Below are positions 9,914 to 17,790 of a DNA stretch of 64,000 nt, one piece after another (within the stretch, counting starts at the first letter, position 1; the number at the start of each line of letters is the position of its first letter). The notes under the pieces are model-generated. The model ran no database searches and was not told the origin of the DNA. It saw only the letters and a program-made list of their open reading frames with translations. The stretch comes from Psychroserpens algicola (GTDB taxonomy: Bacteria > Bacteroidota > Bacteroidia > Flavobacteriales > Flavobacteriaceae), in contig NZ_JACNMJ010000002.1 in assembly GCF_014526325.1 (NCBI RefSeq), positions 186,001-250,000 of the forward strand, written 5' to 3'. The position numbers and the translations under genes are program-made.

Positions 9914-10513
9914 CTACATTACATGACGCTCTTGTAAAATTGACATTACATCATTAAAAATAAAGCCTTTAGCTTGTAAAAGAATTAAATAATGAAATAG
10001 TAAATCGGCACTTTCATTCAAAAATAATTCATCATTATTGTCTTTGGCTTCAATGACAACTTCAACTGCCTCCTCTCCTACTTTTTGAGCAATTTTATTG
10101 ATACCCTTAGCAAATAATGAAGCTACATATGAAGTGTCGTCAGAGGCAGTTTGCTTTCTTTCTGAAATTATATCTTCCAATTTTGACAAAAAACCATAAT
10201 CCTGACTATTATTTTCATTCCAGCACGTATCTGTCCCTTTATGACAGGTTGGTCCATTTGGGTTCACTTTAATTAATAGTGTGTCGCTATCACAATCAAG
10301 TTTTATATCTACTAGCTTTAGATGATTCCCACTTTCCTCACCTTTAGTCCATAAGCGTTGTTTGGTTCTACTAAAAAAAGTTACGAGTTTGGTCTCTACA
10401 GTTTTTTGAAGTGCTTCTTCATTCATATAGCCTAACATTAAGACAGTATTAGTAGCGGCATCTTGTATGATAGCAGGAACAAGTCCGTTATTTTTATCGT
10501 AATTTATATTCAT
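9914..10513 (-). CDS. hisIE: Bifunctional phosphoribosyl-AMP cyclohydrolase / phosphoribosyl-ATP pyrophosphatase
   Basis: Performs the second and third steps of histidine synthesis. The HisI domain (about residues 1-105) shows MLGYMNEEAL, TFFSRTKQRLWTKGEESGN and the metal-binding Asp/Cys region DCDSDTLL and CHKGTDTCW. The HisE domain (about 110-199) shows the MazG-like helices with KVGEEAVEVVIEA and LLFHYLILL. At 199 residues it has the normal fused length. It is the last gene of the his operon, 46 bases after hisF. Confidence 0.96.
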   Translation of the reverse strand: MNINYDKNNGLVPAIIQDAATNTVLMLGYMNEEALQKTVETKLVTFFSRTKQRLWTKGEESGNHLKLVDIKLDCDSDTLLIKVNPNGPTCHKGTDTCWNENNSQDYGFLSKLEDIISERKQTASDDTSYVASLFAKGINKIAQKVGEEAVEVVIEAKDNNDELFLNESADLLFHYLILLQAKGFIFNDVMSILQERHVM

Positions 10514-10559
10514 TATATAATCTTTATTATTTTATTCTTAAAAAGCTTAGTGAAGTGTT

Positions 10560-11315
10560 CTAGAGCCTCACTTGTATATGCTGTTTTTTTAACTCTCTTT
10601 TTAAATTTAAAATTTCTATTTCTCCAAAATGAAATACACTTGCCGCTAAGGCAGCATCAGCTTTTCCTTCTTTAAATGTATCTGCGAAATGCTGTATAGT
10701 TCCTGCTCCTCCAGAAGCAATAACTGGTATGTTTACCAGTTTTGATAATTTTGCCAATGCAGCATTAGCAAAACCAGATTTGGTACCATCATTATTCATT
10801 GAAGTAAATAGAATTTCTCCAGCACCACGTTGCTCAACGTCTTTAGCCCAATCAAATAAATTAAGCGTTGTAGGTTGAGTTCCTCCTGCTAAATGTACTA
10901 TCCATTCATTATCAATTTGTTTAGCATCAATAGCAACAACCACACATTGACTCCCAAATTTATTTGCTAATTCATTGATTAATTCTGGGCGTTTCACTGC
11001 ACTCGAATTAATTGAAACTTTATCTGCACCACAATGCAATAAATCATCAACATCTTTTATGGATGAAATACCTCCTCCAACAGTAAATGGAATATTAACA
11101 TGCTCAGCCACTTTTAAAACCATTTCGTGCATCGTTTTACGACCTTCAAGCGTAGCTGAAATATCCAGAAACACCAGTTCATCTGCTCCTAGTTTTGCAT
11201 ATTGTTTTGCCAATTCTACAGGATCACCAGCATCTCTTAAGTCTACAAAATTGACACCTTTAACGGTTCTTCCGTTTTTGATATCCAGGCAAGGTATAAT
11301 TCGTTTTGTTAACAT
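10560..11315 (-). CDS. hisF: Imidazole glycerol phosphate synthase, cyclase subunit
   Basis: A (beta/alpha)8-barrel of 251 residues. With HisH it turns PRFAR and ammonia into imidazole glycerol phosphate and AICAR. The barrel opens with [20 protein letters not shown], where the catalytic Asp lies in [13 protein letters not shown] and [10 protein letters not shown] are the phosphate-binding loops, and the second catalytic Asp is in VVAIDAK. It starts 3 bases after the stop of hisA in an uninterrupted operon. Confidence 0.97.
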
Positions 11316-11318
11316 AGT

Positions 11319-12035
11319 TTAAATATGTGCTTCTAAATCTCGTAATCTAATATGTCCTTCATAAAGTGCTTTACCTATAATTGCTCCTTCACAACCTAAA
11401 TCTTCTAATGTGTTTAAATCTTTGATAGACGTCACACCACCAGATGCTATTAATTTAATATGTTTTGACGTACTGATAATGCGCTTGTACAAATCAAATG
11501 AAGGTCCTTCAAGCATTCCATCTTTAGCAATATCAGTACAGACCACATACGTTACACCTTTGGATTCATAGGATTTGATAAAAGGCAAAACGTCAATATT
11601 ACTTTCTTCCTGCCATCCACTGACAGCAATTTTTTCATTATTACAATCTGCACCAAGAATAATTTTAGTTCCACCATATTTATTAATCCAGCCTTCAAAA
11701 ACTTTTGGATTTTTAACAGCAATACTTCCACCAGTAATTTGCTTGGCTCCAGAATTGAAAGCGATATGCAAATCTTCATCTGCTTTTAAGCCGCCTCCAA
11801 AATCGATTTTTAAATTTGTTTTAGAACTGATTTGCTCTAAAACTTTATAATTTACAATATGATTAGCTTTTGCACCATCCAGATCTACTAAATGCAAATA
11901 TTGAATTCCAGCACCTTCAAAGGCTTTTGCAACTTCAATTGGGTTCTCATTATATACTTTTTTAGTACTGTAATCTCCTTTTGTAAGGCGAACACATTTT
12001 CCATCTATAATATCTATTGCTGGTATAATTCTCAT
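11319..12035 (-). CDS. hisA: ProFAR isomerase (HisA)
   Basis: 1-(5-phosphoribosyl)-5-[(5-phosphoribosylamino)methylideneamino]imidazole-4-carboxamide isomerase, an Amadori rearrangement on the route to histidine. The 238-residue barrel begins [17 protein letters not shown] with the catalytic Asp in AIDI. A second Asp lies in [12 protein letters not shown], and phosphate loops are seen in [11 protein letters not shown] and IASGGVTS. Its start overlaps the stop of hisH by 4 bases, which suggests translational coupling. Confidence 0.97.
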
Positions 12036-12613
12036 AAGTCTAGAAAGTTTTTTAATAGTTGTTCTCCTGCCACACTACTTTTTTCAGGGTGAAATTGAAC
12101 CCCATAAAAATTGTTTTTTTGTAATGCTGAAGCATAGTCTTCATCATAGTTTGTCGTTGAAATTTGAGCTGCACATTCTTCTACATAGAAACTATGCACA
12201 AGGTACATGAATTCGCCTTCATTAATGTTTTTAAATAGCTTAGATTTTAACGCTTTTATTGTATTCCAACCCATTTGCGGAACTTTTACACGCTTATTAA
12301 AACGTTTAACGTTTGCATTAAAAATTCCAAGTCCTTTAGTATTACCTTCCTCAGAATAATTACACATAAGTTGCATACCTAGGCAAATTCCTAACACAGG
12401 TTGTGTTAATTTAGGAATAAGTTTATCTAATCCGCTTTGTCTAAGCATGAACATAGCTGAACTCGCTTCACCAACTCCTGGAAAAATAACTTTATCTGCA
12501 GCTTTTATAACATCTGCATTATTAGAGAGTTGAGCATCAACACCTAAACGTTTAAAGGCAAACTGTATACTCTTTATGTTTCCAGCGCCATAATCTATAA
12601 TTACAACCTTCAT
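12032..12613 (-). CDS. hisH: Imidazole glycerol phosphate synthase, glutaminase subunit
   Basis: A class I glutamine amidotransferase of 193 residues that supplies ammonia to HisF. The nucleophile Cys is in [10 protein letters not shown], and the catalytic His and Glu are in [10 protein letters not shown]. The oxyanion region [14 protein letters not shown] is also present. It sits directly after hisB with no gap and overlaps hisA by 4 bases. Confidence 0.97.
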
Positions 12614-13747
12614 TTATAACATCCCTTTAGTTGATGGTAAAATCATTTTCTCTACATCACGCTTAACAGCCATTTTAATAGCCTTAGCAAAGGCTTTGAA
12701 GATGGCTTCTATTTTATGATGTTCATTGGTACCTTCTGCTTTTATATTCAAATTACATTTGGCGCCATCGGTAAAAGATTTAAAAAAATGAAAAAACATT
12801 TCAGTAGGCATTTTGCCAATCATTTCACGTTTGAAATCGGCTTCCCAAACGAGCCAGTTTCGTCCACCAAAATCAATGGCAGCCTGCGCAAAGCAGTCAT
12901 CCATAGGTAAAGAAAATCCGTATCGCTCAATACCTAATTTGTCTCCTAAAGTCGTTGCAAACACCTCACCTAGAGCTATCGCTGTATCTTCAATAGTATG
13001 GTGTTCATCGACTTCTAAATCGCCATCAACATCAATCATTAAATCCAATTGTCCGTGACGTGCAATTTGGTCCAGCATATGATCAAAAAAGGCAATTCCT
13101 GTATGAATGCTGCTTTGACCAGTTCCATCAAGATTTAAATCGATTCTAATTTTTGTTTCGTTAGTATCACGCGTTATACTTCCGGTTCGAGCATCTGTTT
13201 TTAGAAAGGTATAGATGGCTTCCCAATCATTACTTTCTAAAGCAATAAACCCATTTAGAGCCTCTCGTTCTACTGTAATTTCATCGGTTCCTAAGTTTGT
13301 ATGATCATTTATAAAAATTCCTTTTGAACCCAAGTTTTTAGCAAGTTCAATATCTGTTAACCGATCTCCAATCACAAAAGAATTTTCCAGATCATATTCC
13401 GAAGAAAAGTATTTCGTCAGTAAACCCGTGTTTGGTTTTCGGGTTGGAGCGTTATCCTTAGCAAAAGTTCTGTCTATAAATTGTTCCTTAAAAACGACAC
13501 CTTCAGCTTCAAAGGTTTTTAGAATGAAATTATGCACAGGCCAAAACGTATGTTCTGGATATACTGCGGTTCCTAAACCATCCTGATTGGTAATCATGAC
13601 GATTTCAAAATCGAGTTCGCTAGCGATTTTACTTAAATACTGAAAGACTTTCGGATAGAATTCCAATTTATCAAATGAATCAATTTGCTCGTCTGCTGGT
13701 TCTTTGATGAGTGTACCGTCTCTATCTATAAATAATACTCTTTTCAT
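12614..13747 (-). CDS. hisB: Bifunctional histidinol-phosphatase / imidazoleglycerol-phosphate dehydratase
   Basis: A two-domain enzyme of 377 residues, as in enterobacteria and many Bacteroidetes. The N-terminal HAD phosphatase (about 1-165) has DRDGT with D8 and D10, the MITNQDG motif and [10 protein letters not shown]. The C-terminal dehydratase (about 185-377) has the manganese-binding HHTIEDTAI and [11 protein letters not shown] His clusters plus [11 protein letters not shown]. It lies between hisC (3-base gap) and hisH (adjacent). Confidence 0.97.
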
Positions 13748-13750
13748 AGC

Positions 13751-14806
13751 TTATTTTAGTGATTTTAATGCTGTAATTAATTTGATGTTTTCCATTTGCG
13801 AACCGACAGTAAATCGCAAGCAATTTTCACATAAAGGTTGATTAGTTCTGTTTCTTACGACAATACCTTTACTTACCAGTTCAGAATATCGAGCTGTGGC
13901 ATTATCAACGCTAACCAAAATAAAATTAGCATCAGAATCGTAAACTGTGTTTATACAGCTTATGTATTTTAGCTCTGTCATTAACCAGTCGCGTTGCTCT
14001 AATATACGTCTTACATCTTCGATAACCAGGTGAGGTTTTGTTAAGTATTCTAAAGCCTTTATCTGTGTTAATTCGTTAATATTATAAGGTGGCTTAATGC
14101 GATTTAGAATCGAAATTATTGCCTTTGACGCATAGCAAACTCCCAGTCGAATTCCTGCCATGCCATAAGCTTTAGATAAGGTTTGTGTTACAATTAAATT
14201 AGGAAATTCGTCTAAGCGCTGTATCCAGCTTTCTGCTTTTGAAAAATCGATATAGGCTTCATCTATTACCACTATACCTTCAAATTCATTAAGCAATAGT
14301 TCGATTTGTTTCGTATCAAAACTGTTTGCCGTTGGATTATTAGGAGAACAGAGAAACAGTAATTTAGTAGCCTTAGACGATGCTTTGAGAATCTTATCTA
14401 CTTGTGGTTGAAAATTTGAACTCAAAGGAATTTTTATAACTTCCACAGCATTGACATTAGCCAATACTTCATACATACCATATGTTGGAGGCAATGTGAT
14501 AACACTATCTTGATTAGGTTCGCAAAATGCTCTAATAATTAAATCTAAAACTTCATCACTTCCATTACCTAGAAGTATGTTGTCTACTGAGATAGATTTC
14601 AGTTTGGACAGTTGCGTTTTTACCTGATTTTGCTGAGGATCTGGATATCGATTGACACCATTATTAAATGGATTCTCATTAGCATCAAGAAATACCATAC
14701 TACCAGAAACTTCTTTATATTCATCTCTTGCTGAAGAATATGGGTTTAGGTTTTTGATATTGTCACGAATGAGGTTGTTTAAATTAAATTTTTGCTTCAT
14801 TATCAT
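13751..14806 (-). CDS. hisC: Histidinol-phosphate aminotransferase
   Basis: A PLP-dependent fold-type I transaminase of 351 residues that converts imidazole-acetol phosphate to histidinol phosphate with glutamate. Visible are LGNGSDEVLDLIIRAFC, SPNNPTANSFD with the substrate-binding Asn, VIDEAYIDF with the PLP-binding Asp, and TLSKAYGMAGIRLG with the Schiff-base Lys. An internal Met two codons after the annotated ATG is an equally possible start. It follows hisD by 23 bases. Confidence 0.96.
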   Translation of the reverse strand: MIMKQKFNLNNLIRDNIKNLNPYSSARDEYKEVSGSMVFLDANENPFNNGVNRYPDPQQNQVKTQLSKLKSISVDNILLGNGSDEVLDLIIRAFCEPNQDSVITLPPTYGMYEVLANVNAVEVIKIPLSSNFQPQVDKILKASSKATKLLFLCSPNNPTANSFDTKQIELLLNEFEGIVVIDEAYIDFSKAESWIQRLDEFPNLIVTQTLSKAYGMAGIRLGVCYASKAIISILNRIKPPYNINELTQIKALEYLTKPHLVIEDVRRILEQRDWLMTELKYISCINTVYDSDANFILVSVDNATARYSELVSKGIVVRNRTNQPLCENCLRFTVGSQMENIKLITALKSLK

Positions 14807-14829
14807 TGTACTGAATTTAATATAGCGTC

Positions 14830-16113
14830 TTATTTTAAATCGTTTAGTCGCAATGTTACTGCATTTTTATGAGCTTGAAGTCCTTCAGCTTCTGCCATAA
14901 ATTCTATGGTATTACCAATGTTTAATAGCCCTTCTTTTGATATTTTCTGAAATGTGATGCTCTTGGTAAAGCTATCTAAATTGACTCCAGAGTACGATTT
15001 ACTATAACCATTTGTTGGCAACGTATGATTTGTACCAGAGGCATAATCACCTGCACTTTCTGGTGTGTAGTTTCCTATGAATACGGAGCCAGCATTTACG
15101 ATATAGTCAATGTAAAAATCTTCATTTTCTGTACAAATGATAAAATGTTCAGGAGCATACTCATTAATCATTTCCATCGCAATTGTATCAGTTTCCACAT
15201 AAATAAGTTTCGAATTATCTATAGCTTTCTCAGCCATGTCTTTACGAGGCAATACTGCTAATTGTTGTTTCACCTCATTAGCAACTTGGGTAATAAGTTG
15301 TTGAGACGTTGATATTAATATCACCTGACTATCGGCTCCATGCTCAGCCTGACTCAATAAATCTGAGGCTACATAACTTGCGTTTGCCGAATCATCAGCT
15401 ACGACTAGAAGCTCACTTGGACCAGCAGGCATATCGATGGCAACACCATATTTGGTAGCCAATTGCTTAGCTACAGTAACATACTGATTTCCTGGCCCGA
15501 AAATTTTATATACCTGCGGAATGACTTTAGTTCCAAAGGTCATTCCTGCAATAGCCTGTATACCTCCAACTTTAATGATTTTTGTTACACCACATAATTG
15601 AGCGGCATATAAAATTTCATTAGCAATTAGACCCTCTTTATTTGGTGGAGAACACATTACAATGTCTTTACAACCTGCAATCTGAGCTGGAATAGCCAAC
15701 ATTAAAACAGTTGAAAACAATGGTGCAGTGCCTCCAGGAATATATAAGCCAACCTTTTCGATTGCTCGTTTTTCCTGCCAGCATTCTATACCAGGAAAGG
15801 TTTGAACTGTAACACGCTTGGTTTCCTGAGCCTGGTGAAACGCTTCAATGTTTGTTTTAGCAGTTTGAATTGCTTTCTTTAGTGCTTCTGGAACCTGCAG
15901 TGAAGCTTCACTTATCTCTTTTTCACTAACAACTGTTGCATCTAATGTAACACCATCAAACAATTCAGTGTATTTAGAAATGGCTTTATCTCCACGTCTT
16001 TGTATGTCATTGAATATTTGATTAACAGTATTTTCAATATTTTCAACAGTTTGAGTTGGTCGTTTTAATATAGCAGACCAATCTGTTTTTTTAGGGTTTA
16101 AAATCGTTTTCAT
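14830..16113 (-). CDS. hisD: Histidinol dehydrogenase
   Basis: Catalyses the last two oxidations, histidinol to histidine, with NAD and zinc. At 427 residues it is full length. GLYIPGGTAPLFSTVLM, FGPGNQYVTVAKQ, MPAGPSELLVVAD, SQAEHGADSQ and the catalytic pair in YAPEHFII (Glu-His) are all visible, and the C-terminal SGTNHTLPT supplies another metal-binding His. Its start codon overlaps the stop of hisG by one base. Confidence 0.97.
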   Translation of the reverse strand: MKTILNPKKTDWSAILKRPTQTVENIENTVNQIFNDIQRRGDKAISKYTELFDGVTLDATVVSEKEISEASLQVPEALKKAIQTAKTNIEAFHQAQETKRVTVQTFPGIECWQEKRAIEKVGLYIPGGTAPLFSTVLMLAIPAQIAGCKDIVMCSPPNKEGLIANEILYAAQLCGVTKIIKVGGIQAIAGMTFGTKVIPQVYKIFGPGNQYVTVAKQLATKYGVAIDMPAGPSELLVVADDSANASYVASDLLSQAEHGADSQVILISTSQQLITQVANEVKQQLAVLPRKDMAEKAIDNSKLIYVETDTIAMEMINEYAPEHFIICTENEDFYIDYIVNAGSVFIGNYTPESAGDYASGTNHTLPTNGYSKSYSGVNLDSFTKSITFQKISKEGLLNIGNTIEFMAEAEGLQAHKNAVTLRLNDLK

Positions 16114-16970
16114 TACAGTACCATGTTTTCAATTGGACATACTAAAATTCCTTCGGCTCCATTACTTTTGAGTTCATCAATCACTTCCCAGAATTCATTT
16201 TTATTAATCACCGAATGCAATGAACTCCAACCCTCTTTTGCCAAAGGCAGAATTGTCGGACTGTTCATTCCTGGTAAAATATTTATGATAGCTTCTAACT
16301 TTTCGTCTGGAGCATTAAGTAATACATACTTACTTTGTCGGCCTCGTAAAACCGATTTCAAACGAAACTGAAGTTTATCTAATATGTTTTGATTTTCTGA
16401 AGATATTTTTGGTGATACAGCTAGAACGGCTTCAGACTTTAACAACACATCAACTTCTTTTAATCCGTTTTTAAACAATGTACTACCGCTGGAAACAATA
16501 TCTACAATGGCATCAGCTAATCCGATATTAGGCGCAATTTCAACCGATCCATTAATGATGTGCAAATTGGCATTGACCTTATTCTGCTTAAGAAATTGAT
16601 TAACCGTATTTGGATACGATGTGGCTATGCGCTTGCCTTCCAAATCCTGAATGGATGTATATGTTTTTGATTTTGGAATAGCAACAGATACTTTGCACGT
16701 TGAAAATCCTAATTTTTCGATACTAGAAATTCCATTGCCTTTTTCAACCAGAACATTCTCTCCTATGATAGCTGCATCTACAACTCCATCTTTTAAATAT
16801 TGTGGAATATCGCCATTCCGAAGGTAAAATACTTCGAGTGGAAAATTTTTAGCCGAGGCTTTAAGCTGATCTTTTCCGTTATCAATTGAAATTCCTACAT
16901 CTTTAAGAATCCGCATGGAATCATCGTGAAGTCTTCCCGATTTTTGTACTGCAATTTTTAATTTACTCAT
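16113..16970 (-). CDS. hisG: ATP phosphoribosyltransferase, long form
   Basis: First enzyme of histidine synthesis: condenses ATP and PRPP. At 285 residues it is the long HisG with a C-terminal regulatory ACT-like domain (about 210-285), through which histidine inhibits the enzyme in this class. The catalytic part shows KIAVQKSGRLHDDSM, KRIATSYPNTVNQFL and the PRPP loop in DAIVDIVSSGSTL. It is the first structural gene of the operon and lies 59 bases downstream of the attenuator hairpin (17029-17061). Expression is thus probably set both by attenuation and by feedback. Confidence 0.97.
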   Translation of the reverse strand: MSKLKIAVQKSGRLHDDSMRILKDVGISIDNGKDQLKASAKNFPLEVFYLRNGDIPQYLKDGVVDAAIIGENVLVEKGNGISSIEKLGFSTCKVSVAIPKSKTYTSIQDLEGKRIATSYPNTVNQFLKQNKVNANLHIINGSVEIAPNIGLADAIVDIVSSGSTLFKNGLKEVDVLLKSEAVLAVSPKISSENQNILDKLQFRLKSVLRGRQSKYVLLNAPDEKLEAIINILPGMNSPTILPLAKEGWSSLHSVINKNEFWEVIDELKSNGAEGILVCPIENMVL

Positions 16971-17028
16971 AATTACTTTTTTATTTTTTTTAGCTTGAGC
17001 AAATCATTTAAGGAACTTGTTAAACAAC

Positions 17029-17061
17029 AAAAAACCGTTTGATTTACTCAAACGGTTTTTT
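17029..17061 (-). terminator. Attenuator terminator of the his operon
   Basis: On the minus strand AAAAAACCGTTTGA and TCAAACGGTTTTTT make a perfect 14-bp stem with a 5-base loop (GTAAA) that ends in a U-tract. It stands between the His-rich leader peptide and hisG, so it would stop transcription before the structural genes unless it is disrupted. Confidence 0.9.
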
Positions 17062-17104
17062 AAATATCTTGATTTCATTCAATACATTTTCAGCTCGCTT
17101 GAGT
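17046..17104 (-). promoter_or_regulatory. Antiterminator pairing in the his leader
   Basis: In the RNA, ACTCAAGCG (17104-17096, inside the leader peptide frame just after the His codons) can pair with CGTTTGAGU (17054-17046), which is part of the 5' arm and loop of the terminator. The helix has 9 pairs with one G-U. A ribosome stalled on the His codons (17128-17111) leaves ACTCAAGCG free and favours this pairing. A ribosome that reaches the stop codon (17090) covers it and lets the terminator form. Confidence 0.75.
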
Positions 17105-17146
17105 GCCAGTATGAAAATGATGATGATGTGATTGAATAAAATACAT
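17090..17146 (-). CDS. hisL: his operon leader peptide
   Basis: An 18-codon frame, ATG to TGA, that encodes a peptide with the run HHHHFH: five His among six consecutive codons (17128-17111), all CAT. It lies directly upstream of the terminator and antiterminator elements and 120 bases upstream of hisG. This is the expected design of a ribosome-mediated attenuator that senses charged tRNA-His. No Shine-Dalgarno sequence is seen, as is normal for this phylum. The coding assignment comes from His content and position, not from homology. Confidence 0.85.
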   Translation of the reverse strand: MYFIQSHHHHFHTGTQAS

Positions 17147-17163
17147 TAGTTGTTATGTTTAAA

Positions 17164-17191
17164 CAAAGATTGCAAATTAAAATTAACAAAA
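17164..17191 (-). promoter_or_regulatory. Putative promoter of the his operon
   Basis: On the minus strand TTTTG (17191-17187) is followed 15 bases later by AATCTTTG (17171-17164), one base off the TAnnTTTG -7 consensus. An alternative -7 is TAATTTGC just upstream. Either would start the RNA shortly before the leader peptide ATG at 17146. Confidence 0.35.
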
Positions 17192-17247
17192 CCTAATCTT
17201 AGAAGAAGATTTATGATATTATTAATATTTAAAGCTCAAATTGCAAA

Positions 17248-17790
17248 TTACTCATATTTTGGACAAGTAGTCCACGGATAGGCACATTGATCTTTAAAAC
17301 GCAACCAACCTTCAATTCGTTTTTTACCAACTTTAAATTTCACTTTCGACCATAAATCATTAATTTCTATAATGTTCACAATTTGAAAATTATCCATTTT
17401 ATGAATTCGGTTAGAATTTAATGATGGTAAATCATATATATACACCTGATGATTGTCATCATAATTATCGACATGCACTAAAAAGTTAGTACTTTTCACC
17501 CAATGATCATCATAAGGGAAATTTTTATACGAACTCGGTAATCTTTGGATGTTACGCATTTTAAACCAACCAAATTCACTTTCAGTAATAGCAATCTTAT
17601 ACCATGAATTCTTGTCGGCAATGTTATACAACGTATCTACAACATTTCCACCCATATCATCATAAATCAATATAGGTTCTGGAGTTTGTTTGTTGTAATA
17701 AGCCTCTACAAAATTTCTATAGAAAGATTGATTGTCCTTTTGAGCAAACCCAAAAACAGATATTAGTAAACATAAAATACAAGCTCTCAC
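17248..17790 (-). CDS. Exported protein with SH3-like region
   Basis: A 180-residue protein with a short signal peptide (residues 1-16, ending VFGFAQ). I recognise no family with certainty. The second half (about 110-165) reads like a bacterial SH3 domain: VYIYDLPSLNSNRI, a V-NIIEINDLW segment and WSKVKF followed by GWLRF. The first half has a similar pattern (ILIYDDMGGNVV, then WYKIAI and FGWFKM), so there may be two SH3-like units. Two Cys close to the C-terminus could pair. It starts with GTG 7 bases after the prohibitin-family gene, and is the last of a run of envelope genes. Confidence 0.6.
   Translation of the reverse strand: MRACILCLLISVFGFAQKDNQSFYRNFVEAYYNKQTPEPILIYDDMGGNVVDTLYNIADKNSWYKIAITESEFGWFKMRNIQRLPSSYKNFPYDDHWVKSTNFLVHVDNYDDNHQVYIYDLPSLNSNRIHKMDNFQIVNIIEINDLWSKVKFKVGKKRIEGWLRFKDQCAYPWTTCPKYE

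Follow-up and report, generated by a model that had tools for sequence, protein, structure and literature searches.

Timing is essential in attenuators generally, and attenuators are reported to have been predicted in Bacteroidetes by Vitreschak et al. in 2004. The enterobacterial his attenuator (Rfam His_leader, RF00514) is built from a run of His codons in a short open reading frame (ORF), with an antiterminator and a terminator before hisG, and some Firmicutes his attenuators likewise combine a His leader peptide and a terminator with an antiterminator established by comparison; the abstract of the same work, which dates from 2022 and deals with his regulation, names Proteobacteria as having RNA attenuators (PMC9413887). 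The phylum considered here has its own peptide-leader attenuator, the Bacteroid-trp leader (RF01692; PMC2864571). In Flavobacterium psychrophilum, conserved structured 5′ elements without Rfam hits have been described upstream of pheA and hisG, and the same paper mentions “strong clues” that amino-acid operons are attenuated through leader peptides (PMC9723704); its section 19 gives the hisG element without anatomy, sequence, or mechanism. In the sections consulted of a 2021 paper on the his genes of the superphylum, attenuation appears once, for enterobacteria, and the word “leader” never (PMC8305728).

The element described here lies on the minus strand of a 64,000-nucleotide stretch of Psychroserpens algicola DNA (the window) and is very probably a ribosome-mediated transcription attenuator of the his operon, its promoter, stalling, and read-through being predicted from comparison and folding. 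A promoter-like site, a leader frame, a terminator, and hisG follow one another on this strand. The leader peptide ORF MYFIQSHHHHFHTGTQAS (17090–17146) begins with an ATG at 17146 and ends with a TGA at 17090; its 18 codons, with His at codons 7–10 and 12, give exactly the HHHHFH frame of the original prediction. It sits directly 5′ of hisGDC(NB)HAF(IE), in which hisG (16113–16970; minus strand, TIGR00070 match) is the first gene of the controlled operon and is followed on the same strand by hisD, hisC, the bifunctional hisB, hisH, hisA, hisF, and hisIE (9914–16113), all with NCBIfam matches above cut-off; by these matches, the genes 3′ of the leader make histidine, the amino acid that is sensed. 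The element extends beyond 17029, up to the hisG start at 16970. RNA of positions 17146–17020 folds at −37.9 kcal/mol, a z of −7.1 relative to 200 dinucleotide shuffles, which give −17.87 kcal/mol (sd 2.83), and a covariance model of the element (R1) found a single strong match in its own genome (E 1.4e-23), the next having an E value of 0.0067.

No Rfam family reached its gathering score in the window, and the weak matches in 16900–17300 were set aside, all being below cut-offs and most lying on the terminator. His_leader was unmatched in the window at gathering score, in 16900–17300 at E ≤ 10, and in loci L001 and L002 at E ≤ 0.5; Bacteroid-trp did not match the his leader, and the T-box models were unmatched both in the window at gathering score and in a permissive search of 16900–17300. 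The type of control is a known one, of which this is a his member without an Rfam match, and an additional helix, s4:s7, makes the element a variant. The enterobacterial his attenuator differs in that the present element has a predicted 13-nt A-rich 5′ UTR without a visible Shine-Dalgarno sequence and, close to where hisG begins, the additional helix s4:s7. Bacteroid-trp differs in sensing Trp rather than His, and the Firmicutes his attenuators belong to another lineage, with an s7-like element unmentioned in the corresponding part of PMC9413887. The F. psychrophilum hisG element, going by its description, is probably the same element.

The terminator of the window consists of 14 perfect pairs between arms at 17061–17048 and 17042–17029, with a 5-nt loop and a T-run within the 3′ arm, and corresponds exactly to the perfect 14-bp terminator with U-tract that had been proposed. 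Its 3′ arm with the U-tract is strand s5 (17029–17042, minus strand, as are all the strands that follow), whereas strand s4 (17046–17061) comprises the 5′ arm and two loop bases used by s2, and has s2, s5, and s7 as partners. A competing 9-bp helix had also been claimed, and it is present: the antiterminator strand s2 (ACTCAAGCG, 17096–17104), located after the His run, pairs with CGTTTGAGT (17054–17046) through nine pairs, one of them G·U. The accompanying claim of a minimal layout of only two alternative helices was wrong, and the statement that no separate pause hairpin is visible was incorrect because the window fold contains a long 5′ hairpin. In this hairpin s1 (17131–17142), the 5′ strand of the outer stem, pairs with s3 (17072–17086), downstream of the leader stop, at 17142–17131 with 17083–17072, and two inner stems are added. 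Both the 5′ hairpin and s4:s7 are conserved, and for the antitermination state folding predicts a small hairpin of s3 with s6 (17062–17089) immediately 3′ of the leader stop. Strand s3 could also pair weakly with s2; RNAalifold gave a possible s2:s3 helix (TCAAGCG with TGTATTGA) with 99.5% of cells paired, and this helix, which has zero double changes, a median of −2.8 kcal/mol, and a probability of at most 0.09 in window folding, was kept only as one that may form. The segment TGTATTGA after the leader stop (17086–17079 in the window) is almost invariant in the window and its relatives, and its three alternative pairings are a partial explanation.

Conservation was assessed in relatives comprising the best 80 of 552 confirmed stretches, taken from named genomes with HisG. 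These are closely related, non-independent sequences, mostly from named Flavobacteriaceae (Psychroserpens, Winogradskyella, Gelidibacter, and Tamlana), some being metagenome bins whose names go no further than class or phylum. All 80 have a leader of 16–18 codons with 3–6 His codons (78 of them under a stricter ORF rule) and a CC+GTTTGA terminator located 30–37 nt past its stop, while dinucleotide shuffles of the upstream regions of the relatives gave the His-rich ORF together with a terminator in 0/2520 cases and the ORF alone in 3/2520. Among same-family loci the ORF was found in 51/52 and the ORF with terminator in 49/52. Other Bacteroidia are represented by 74 loci from 36 family codes; under the rules used, the ORF is present in 57 (25 family codes) and the ORF and terminator in 43 (22 family codes), with the His ORF absent in 17 of the 74 and the combination undetected in 31. 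Two loci shorter than expected (L100 and L137) were left out of these family and Bacteroidia counts, as were seven of the 82 matched genomes outside the family, five of them partial or weak and two full-length (G181 and G098). Outside the class Bacteroidia, 20 of the 78 matched genomes were read, of which five have the ORF and terminator, four a His-rich ORF with the terminator undetected, and 11 no His-rich ORF. By these comparisons the element is present in other Bacteroidia families and in a few genomes beyond. In the family codes f5 and f41, 5/5 loci each have a His-rich leader (e.g., L126, L160, L204, and L205) with no leader-linked terminator under the rule used, and control in these families may differ.

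Transcription is predicted to start at approximately 17159, on the basis of a −7 promoter box AATCTTTG (17164–17171, minus strand; consensus TAnnTTTG) whose position is taken as −12 to −5 (PMC9723704); a predicted upstream promoter element lies at 17192–17196 on the same strand and reads TTAGG, where relatives often have TTTGG. This start is upstream of 17090, the position below which a start would have spoken against the original prediction, and yields a 5′ UTR of 13 nt in the window (counted by hand). Among the best 80 of 552 relatives, TTTG occurs 5′ of the leader ATG in 77, in 70 of which the predicted 5′ UTR is 12–15 nt long, and a TTG/TTAGG-like match lies 20–30 nt above TTTG in 75, this being a loose pattern with no background control. 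The predicted 5′ UTR stretch is A-rich in the relatives. No Shine-Dalgarno sequence is visible in it by inspection, in line with initiation in Flavobacterium johnsoniae (PMC6847099); ribosomes of Bacteroidia make no use of Shine-Dalgarno pairing (PMC6847099; PMC9976891).

The pairings of the leader were examined for covariation in an alignment of 81 leaders (A1). For the 5′ hairpin and terminator, 91.0% of cells are paired, double changes occur in 11/37 pairs (7.2 in shuffles) and in 78 cells (31.9 in shuffles), and the score of 0.128 compares with 0.085 in shuffles and at most 0.058 for slid partners. Double changes are found in 5/12 pairs of the s1:s3 outer stem, the two outermost pairs of which are mostly unpaired in relatives and not conserved. 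The post-stop hairpin s3:s6 is paired in 90.0% of cells in the leader alignment and has no covariation. All 81 rows share an unchanged terminator 5′ arm, CCGTTTGA, in keeping with a strand that has several partners. The antiterminator s2:s4 is paired in 91.9% of cells and is nearly invariant, and its covariation within the family is therefore weak, the score being reached by 60/500 shuffles. Pairing of s2 with s4 exceeds that of shuffles (p ≤ 0.05) in 42/49 family leaders and 27/43 leaders outside the family, and is non-significant in 16 of these 43. Outside the family, terminator arms such as GGCTTACC and CCGCCTAT occur, and the post-His stretch again complements the arm. This turnover argues for the antiterminator, its pairing appearing to have been re-created outside the family, mostly with unrelated sequences. 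The small frame and the pairing, on whose conservation in related genomes the original prediction depended, are both conserved.

The effect of a ribosome on these pairings was modeled with an assumed footprint of 28 nt, from −15 to +12 relative to the A site; one of 81 leaders, which did not fit the His-run pattern, and one of 49 family leaders, with too short an arm, were left out. With the window RNA exposed to the end of s2:s4, the antiterminator reached 1.0 when the A site was at His 7, 8, 9, or 10, 0.24 with the ribosome at the start codon, and 0.0 without a ribosome, at His 12, and at the stop codon. With a stall at the second His codon, the arm pairs upstream (mean > 0.5) in 78/80 of the best 80 of 552 relatives, 47/48 family leaders, and 34/43 leaders outside the family. 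These numbers fall to 1/80, 1/48, and 8/43 with the ribosome at the stop codon, to 5, 2, and 5 without a ribosome, and to 4, 0, and 6 with shuffled leaders; in one family leader the footprint response is reversed. At equilibrium the full-length window RNA adopts the terminator whatever the ribosome state, and the switch therefore depends on timing.

From the conserved anatomy and the folding, the following steps of termination and antitermination are inferred. Transcription would begin about 13 nt before the leader ORF with its four consecutive His codons. If the leader is not translated, s1 and s3 would pair, s2 would be locked inside the hairpin, and the terminator s4:s5 would form. When His-tRNA is ample, the ribosome would get to the stop codon and cover s2 and s3, and the terminator would again form. 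When His-tRNA is scarce, a stall at His codons 7–10 would open the 5′ hairpin and free s2, which could pair with s4 before s5 exists, allowing the polymerase to read through. Sequence and folding together indicate an antiterminator that excludes the terminator and that a stall at the regulatory codons would release, and the proposal of a His-codon attenuator of a his operon in a lineage without Shine-Dalgarno leaders gains strong support from conservation, covariation, and ribosome-footprint folding.

Other accounts of the leader and its hairpin fare less well. The hairpin is a good terminator and a gene lies upstream on the same strand (17248–17790), so that it might merely terminate this gene, the His frame having arisen by chance; given a leader, terminator, and 30–37 nt spacing kept in all of the best 80 of 552 relatives, a promoter-like site between the upstream gene and the leader, and an ORF and terminator combination absent from all 2520 shuffles, this account is scarcely credible. 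A structured leader ahead of an amino-acid operon would also be expected of a sensor that needs no ribosome, either a T-box or a riboswitch for His, acting on the same terminator. Such a sensor is highly improbable in view of a window with zero Rfam families at gathering score, the absence of a T-box from the 14 matches of the permissive search of 16900–17300, the His run conserved in frame, and a predicted pairing that responds to the ribosome footprint. The leader peptide, in turn, is well conserved in the best 80 of 552 relatives, where it often reads MxFIQLHHHHFHTCTQAS, and a trans-acting leader peptide has been published, peTrpL of Sinorhizobium (PMC7298713); the peptide might thus itself be functional, in metal binding or in trans, and the RNA pairing secondary. 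Its tail is, however, fixed at the level of codons. In the best 80 of 552 relatives the penultimate codon is Ala GCG in 75/80 leaders compared with 146/1457 Ala codons in their hisG, and TGC makes up 45/46 leader Cys codons compared with 56/214 in hisG, comparisons whose P values are not literal because the sequences are related. Outside the family the tail is replaced and the pairing often stays. These patterns indicate that the leader tail is held by pairing and not by the peptide alone, and a primary function of the peptide is very unlikely. Leader His codons of the same relatives are CAT in 342/358 cases, compared with 97/222 in their hisG, a bias that may reflect pairing, decoding speed, or base composition.

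Between the attenuator and its first gene lies s7 (TGATTTGCTCAAGC, 16993–17006, minus strand), which is complementary to the terminator 5′ arm and loop GTTTGAGTAAATCA and is situated 22 nt before hisG; in the loop class of the window, the hisG start (ATGAGTAAATTA, 16959–16970, minus strand) is complementary to s7. An s7-type segment is found in the terminator–hisG gap at p ≤ 0.05 in 76/81 close loci and at p ≤ 0.01 in 74, with a median of −17.1 kcal/mol. It occurs in 31/49 broader family loci, being absent at p ≤ 0.05 in 18/49, and in 9/43 loci outside the family, five with the same terminator type. Such pairing is seen in 1/22 trp attenuators of the family, a further difference from Bacteroid-trp (seven of 29 trp leaders, with a gap below 15 nt, were left out), and in 0/26 phe attenuators. 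No earlier description of an s7-like element was found in open-licence full text.

Covariation of s4:s7 was measured in an alignment made from sequence alone (A2), which holds 65/81 loci, 64 of them distinct, the 16 with a gap above 66 nt being left out. Here s4:s7 is paired in 92.0% of cells (82.0 in shuffles), with 68 double-change cells (25.6 in shuffles), and its score of 0.326, the highest covariation score measured, exceeds both the 0.173 of shuffles and the maximum of 0.094 reached with slid partners; pairs with double changes number 5, no excess over shuffles (4.8). The terminator stem uses none of the five loop bases and s2:s4 only the first two, yet loop and s7 change together, AGTAAATC with GATTTACT, AGACAATC with GATTGTTT, and AGAATATC with GATATTTT. 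Across 25 loop classes, the pairing of each loop with its own gap was matched by 0/5000 permutations. The s4:s7 pairing itself is well supported by these comparisons. The spacing between s7 and hisG varies among relatives. Pairing of s7 with the hisG start (p ≤ 0.05) is found in 32/33 loci of the commonest loop class (33/81 loci, including the window), in 5/11 with GACAAT loops, and in 2/17 with GAA* loops; it was tested for covariation and none was found. In the commonest class, the AUG region has a predicted access of 0.34 when s7 is free, 0.62 when s7 is held, and 0.55 with a shuffled gap, and the shift in access exceeds 0.2 in 29/33 loci of this class, 2/11 of the GACAAT class, 2/17 of the GAA* class, and 10/20 of the remaining classes. 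In L043, L053, L060, L074, and L079, a further short inverted repeat (for example TTCCTGCTTTCTCAGGAA) is found between s7 and the start of hisG.

Since s7 is made after the termination decision, it cannot decide the termination of its own transcript. In read-through RNA, s7 could claim s4 together with the terminator loop. Within the loop class of the window, s7 would otherwise pair with the hisG start codon, and s4:s7 would therefore free hisG for translation. The attenuator might in this way act twice, a stalled ribosome setting termination and thereafter leaving the hisG start open, with s7 held by s4, or closed; the terminator loop would then be a decoy of the hisG start, both reading TGAGTAAAT. 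This double action, modeled by folding, is put forward tentatively, as less likely than not, and the second gate on hisG translation that we infer would concern this loop class and depend on the order of folding. The trp leader of Bacillus subtilis with its TRAP protein offers the same logic as is proposed for s7, a single leader switch governing termination and, in read-through RNA, also the start of the first gene (PMC11255114). In that system the decision is made by a protein and a Shine-Dalgarno sequence is sequestered, whereas here a stalled ribosome would decide.

A plainer reading is that s7 merely opens the terminator hairpin after read-through and has no control over hisG translation. 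It agrees with the covariation of s4:s7 across loop classes, which s7:hisG lacks, and with the finding that s4:s7 outweighs s4:s5 in 52/81 loci when s7 has just emerged; set against it are the pairing of s7 with the hisG start in nearly all loci of the commonest class, the predicted gain in AUG access when s7 is held, and a window terminator that is not out-competed at equilibrium. In a fuller fold of the window the terminator stands at 0.75–0.92 before the hisG start is made and at 1.00 after, and in window RNA extending to hisG codon 12 the equilibrium structure is the terminator (1.00), not s4:s7, in all three ribosome states. Simple opening of the hairpin is a serious possibility, if somewhat short of an even chance. 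The terminated leader RNA, which would be abundant when histidine is plentiful, might alternatively act in trans, its loop blocking hisG translation via s7. In the window, as in many relatives, s7 is complementary to loop and arm over 13–14 nt, and terminated RNA leaves the loop single-stranded, but every read-through RNA can form this pairing in cis, and action in trans is unlikely. Because the terminator–hisG gap ranges from 37 to 122 nt, the inverted repeat of s4 and s7 was not taken for a DNA operator.

Other amino-acid leaders were seen in the same genome. A trp leader MNINLNHTWWWNSRNNNFVN with a terminator precedes trpE (L251, contig C13, approximately 1344–1468) and matches Bacteroid-trp at 61 bits (cut-off 49); a WW leader and terminator precede trpE in 29/30 family loci, and the antiterminator test on trp leaders came out negative under the region rule used, with 1/22 positive. 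A Phe/Tyr-rich leader MNTLNHTYYNWFYFFFSEKKETLYV and terminator lie before the prephenate dehydratase gene (L218:1271–1400, contig C16). Such a Phe/Tyr leader is found in 26/30 family loci, with antiterminator pairing at p ≤ 0.05 in 24/26, and was unmatched in Rfam up to E 0.5. A short frame ending GTIIFTITLRGI before the aspartokinase gene (L228:2646–2732, contig C12), without a clear terminator, is a possible Thr/Ile leader, and no leader was seen before ilvD.

The findings suggest that ribosome-sensing attenuation is widespread in Bacteroidia. Ribosomes translating the leader would need to load onto a 5′ end that is A-rich and very short and to match the pace of the polymerase, and transcription–translation coupling in the phylum could therefore be tested with one reporter. 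If s4:s7 truly controls hisG translation, it would represent a new way of coupling the two levels of control, and such a translational gate would exert its control with no Shine-Dalgarno sequence to hide.
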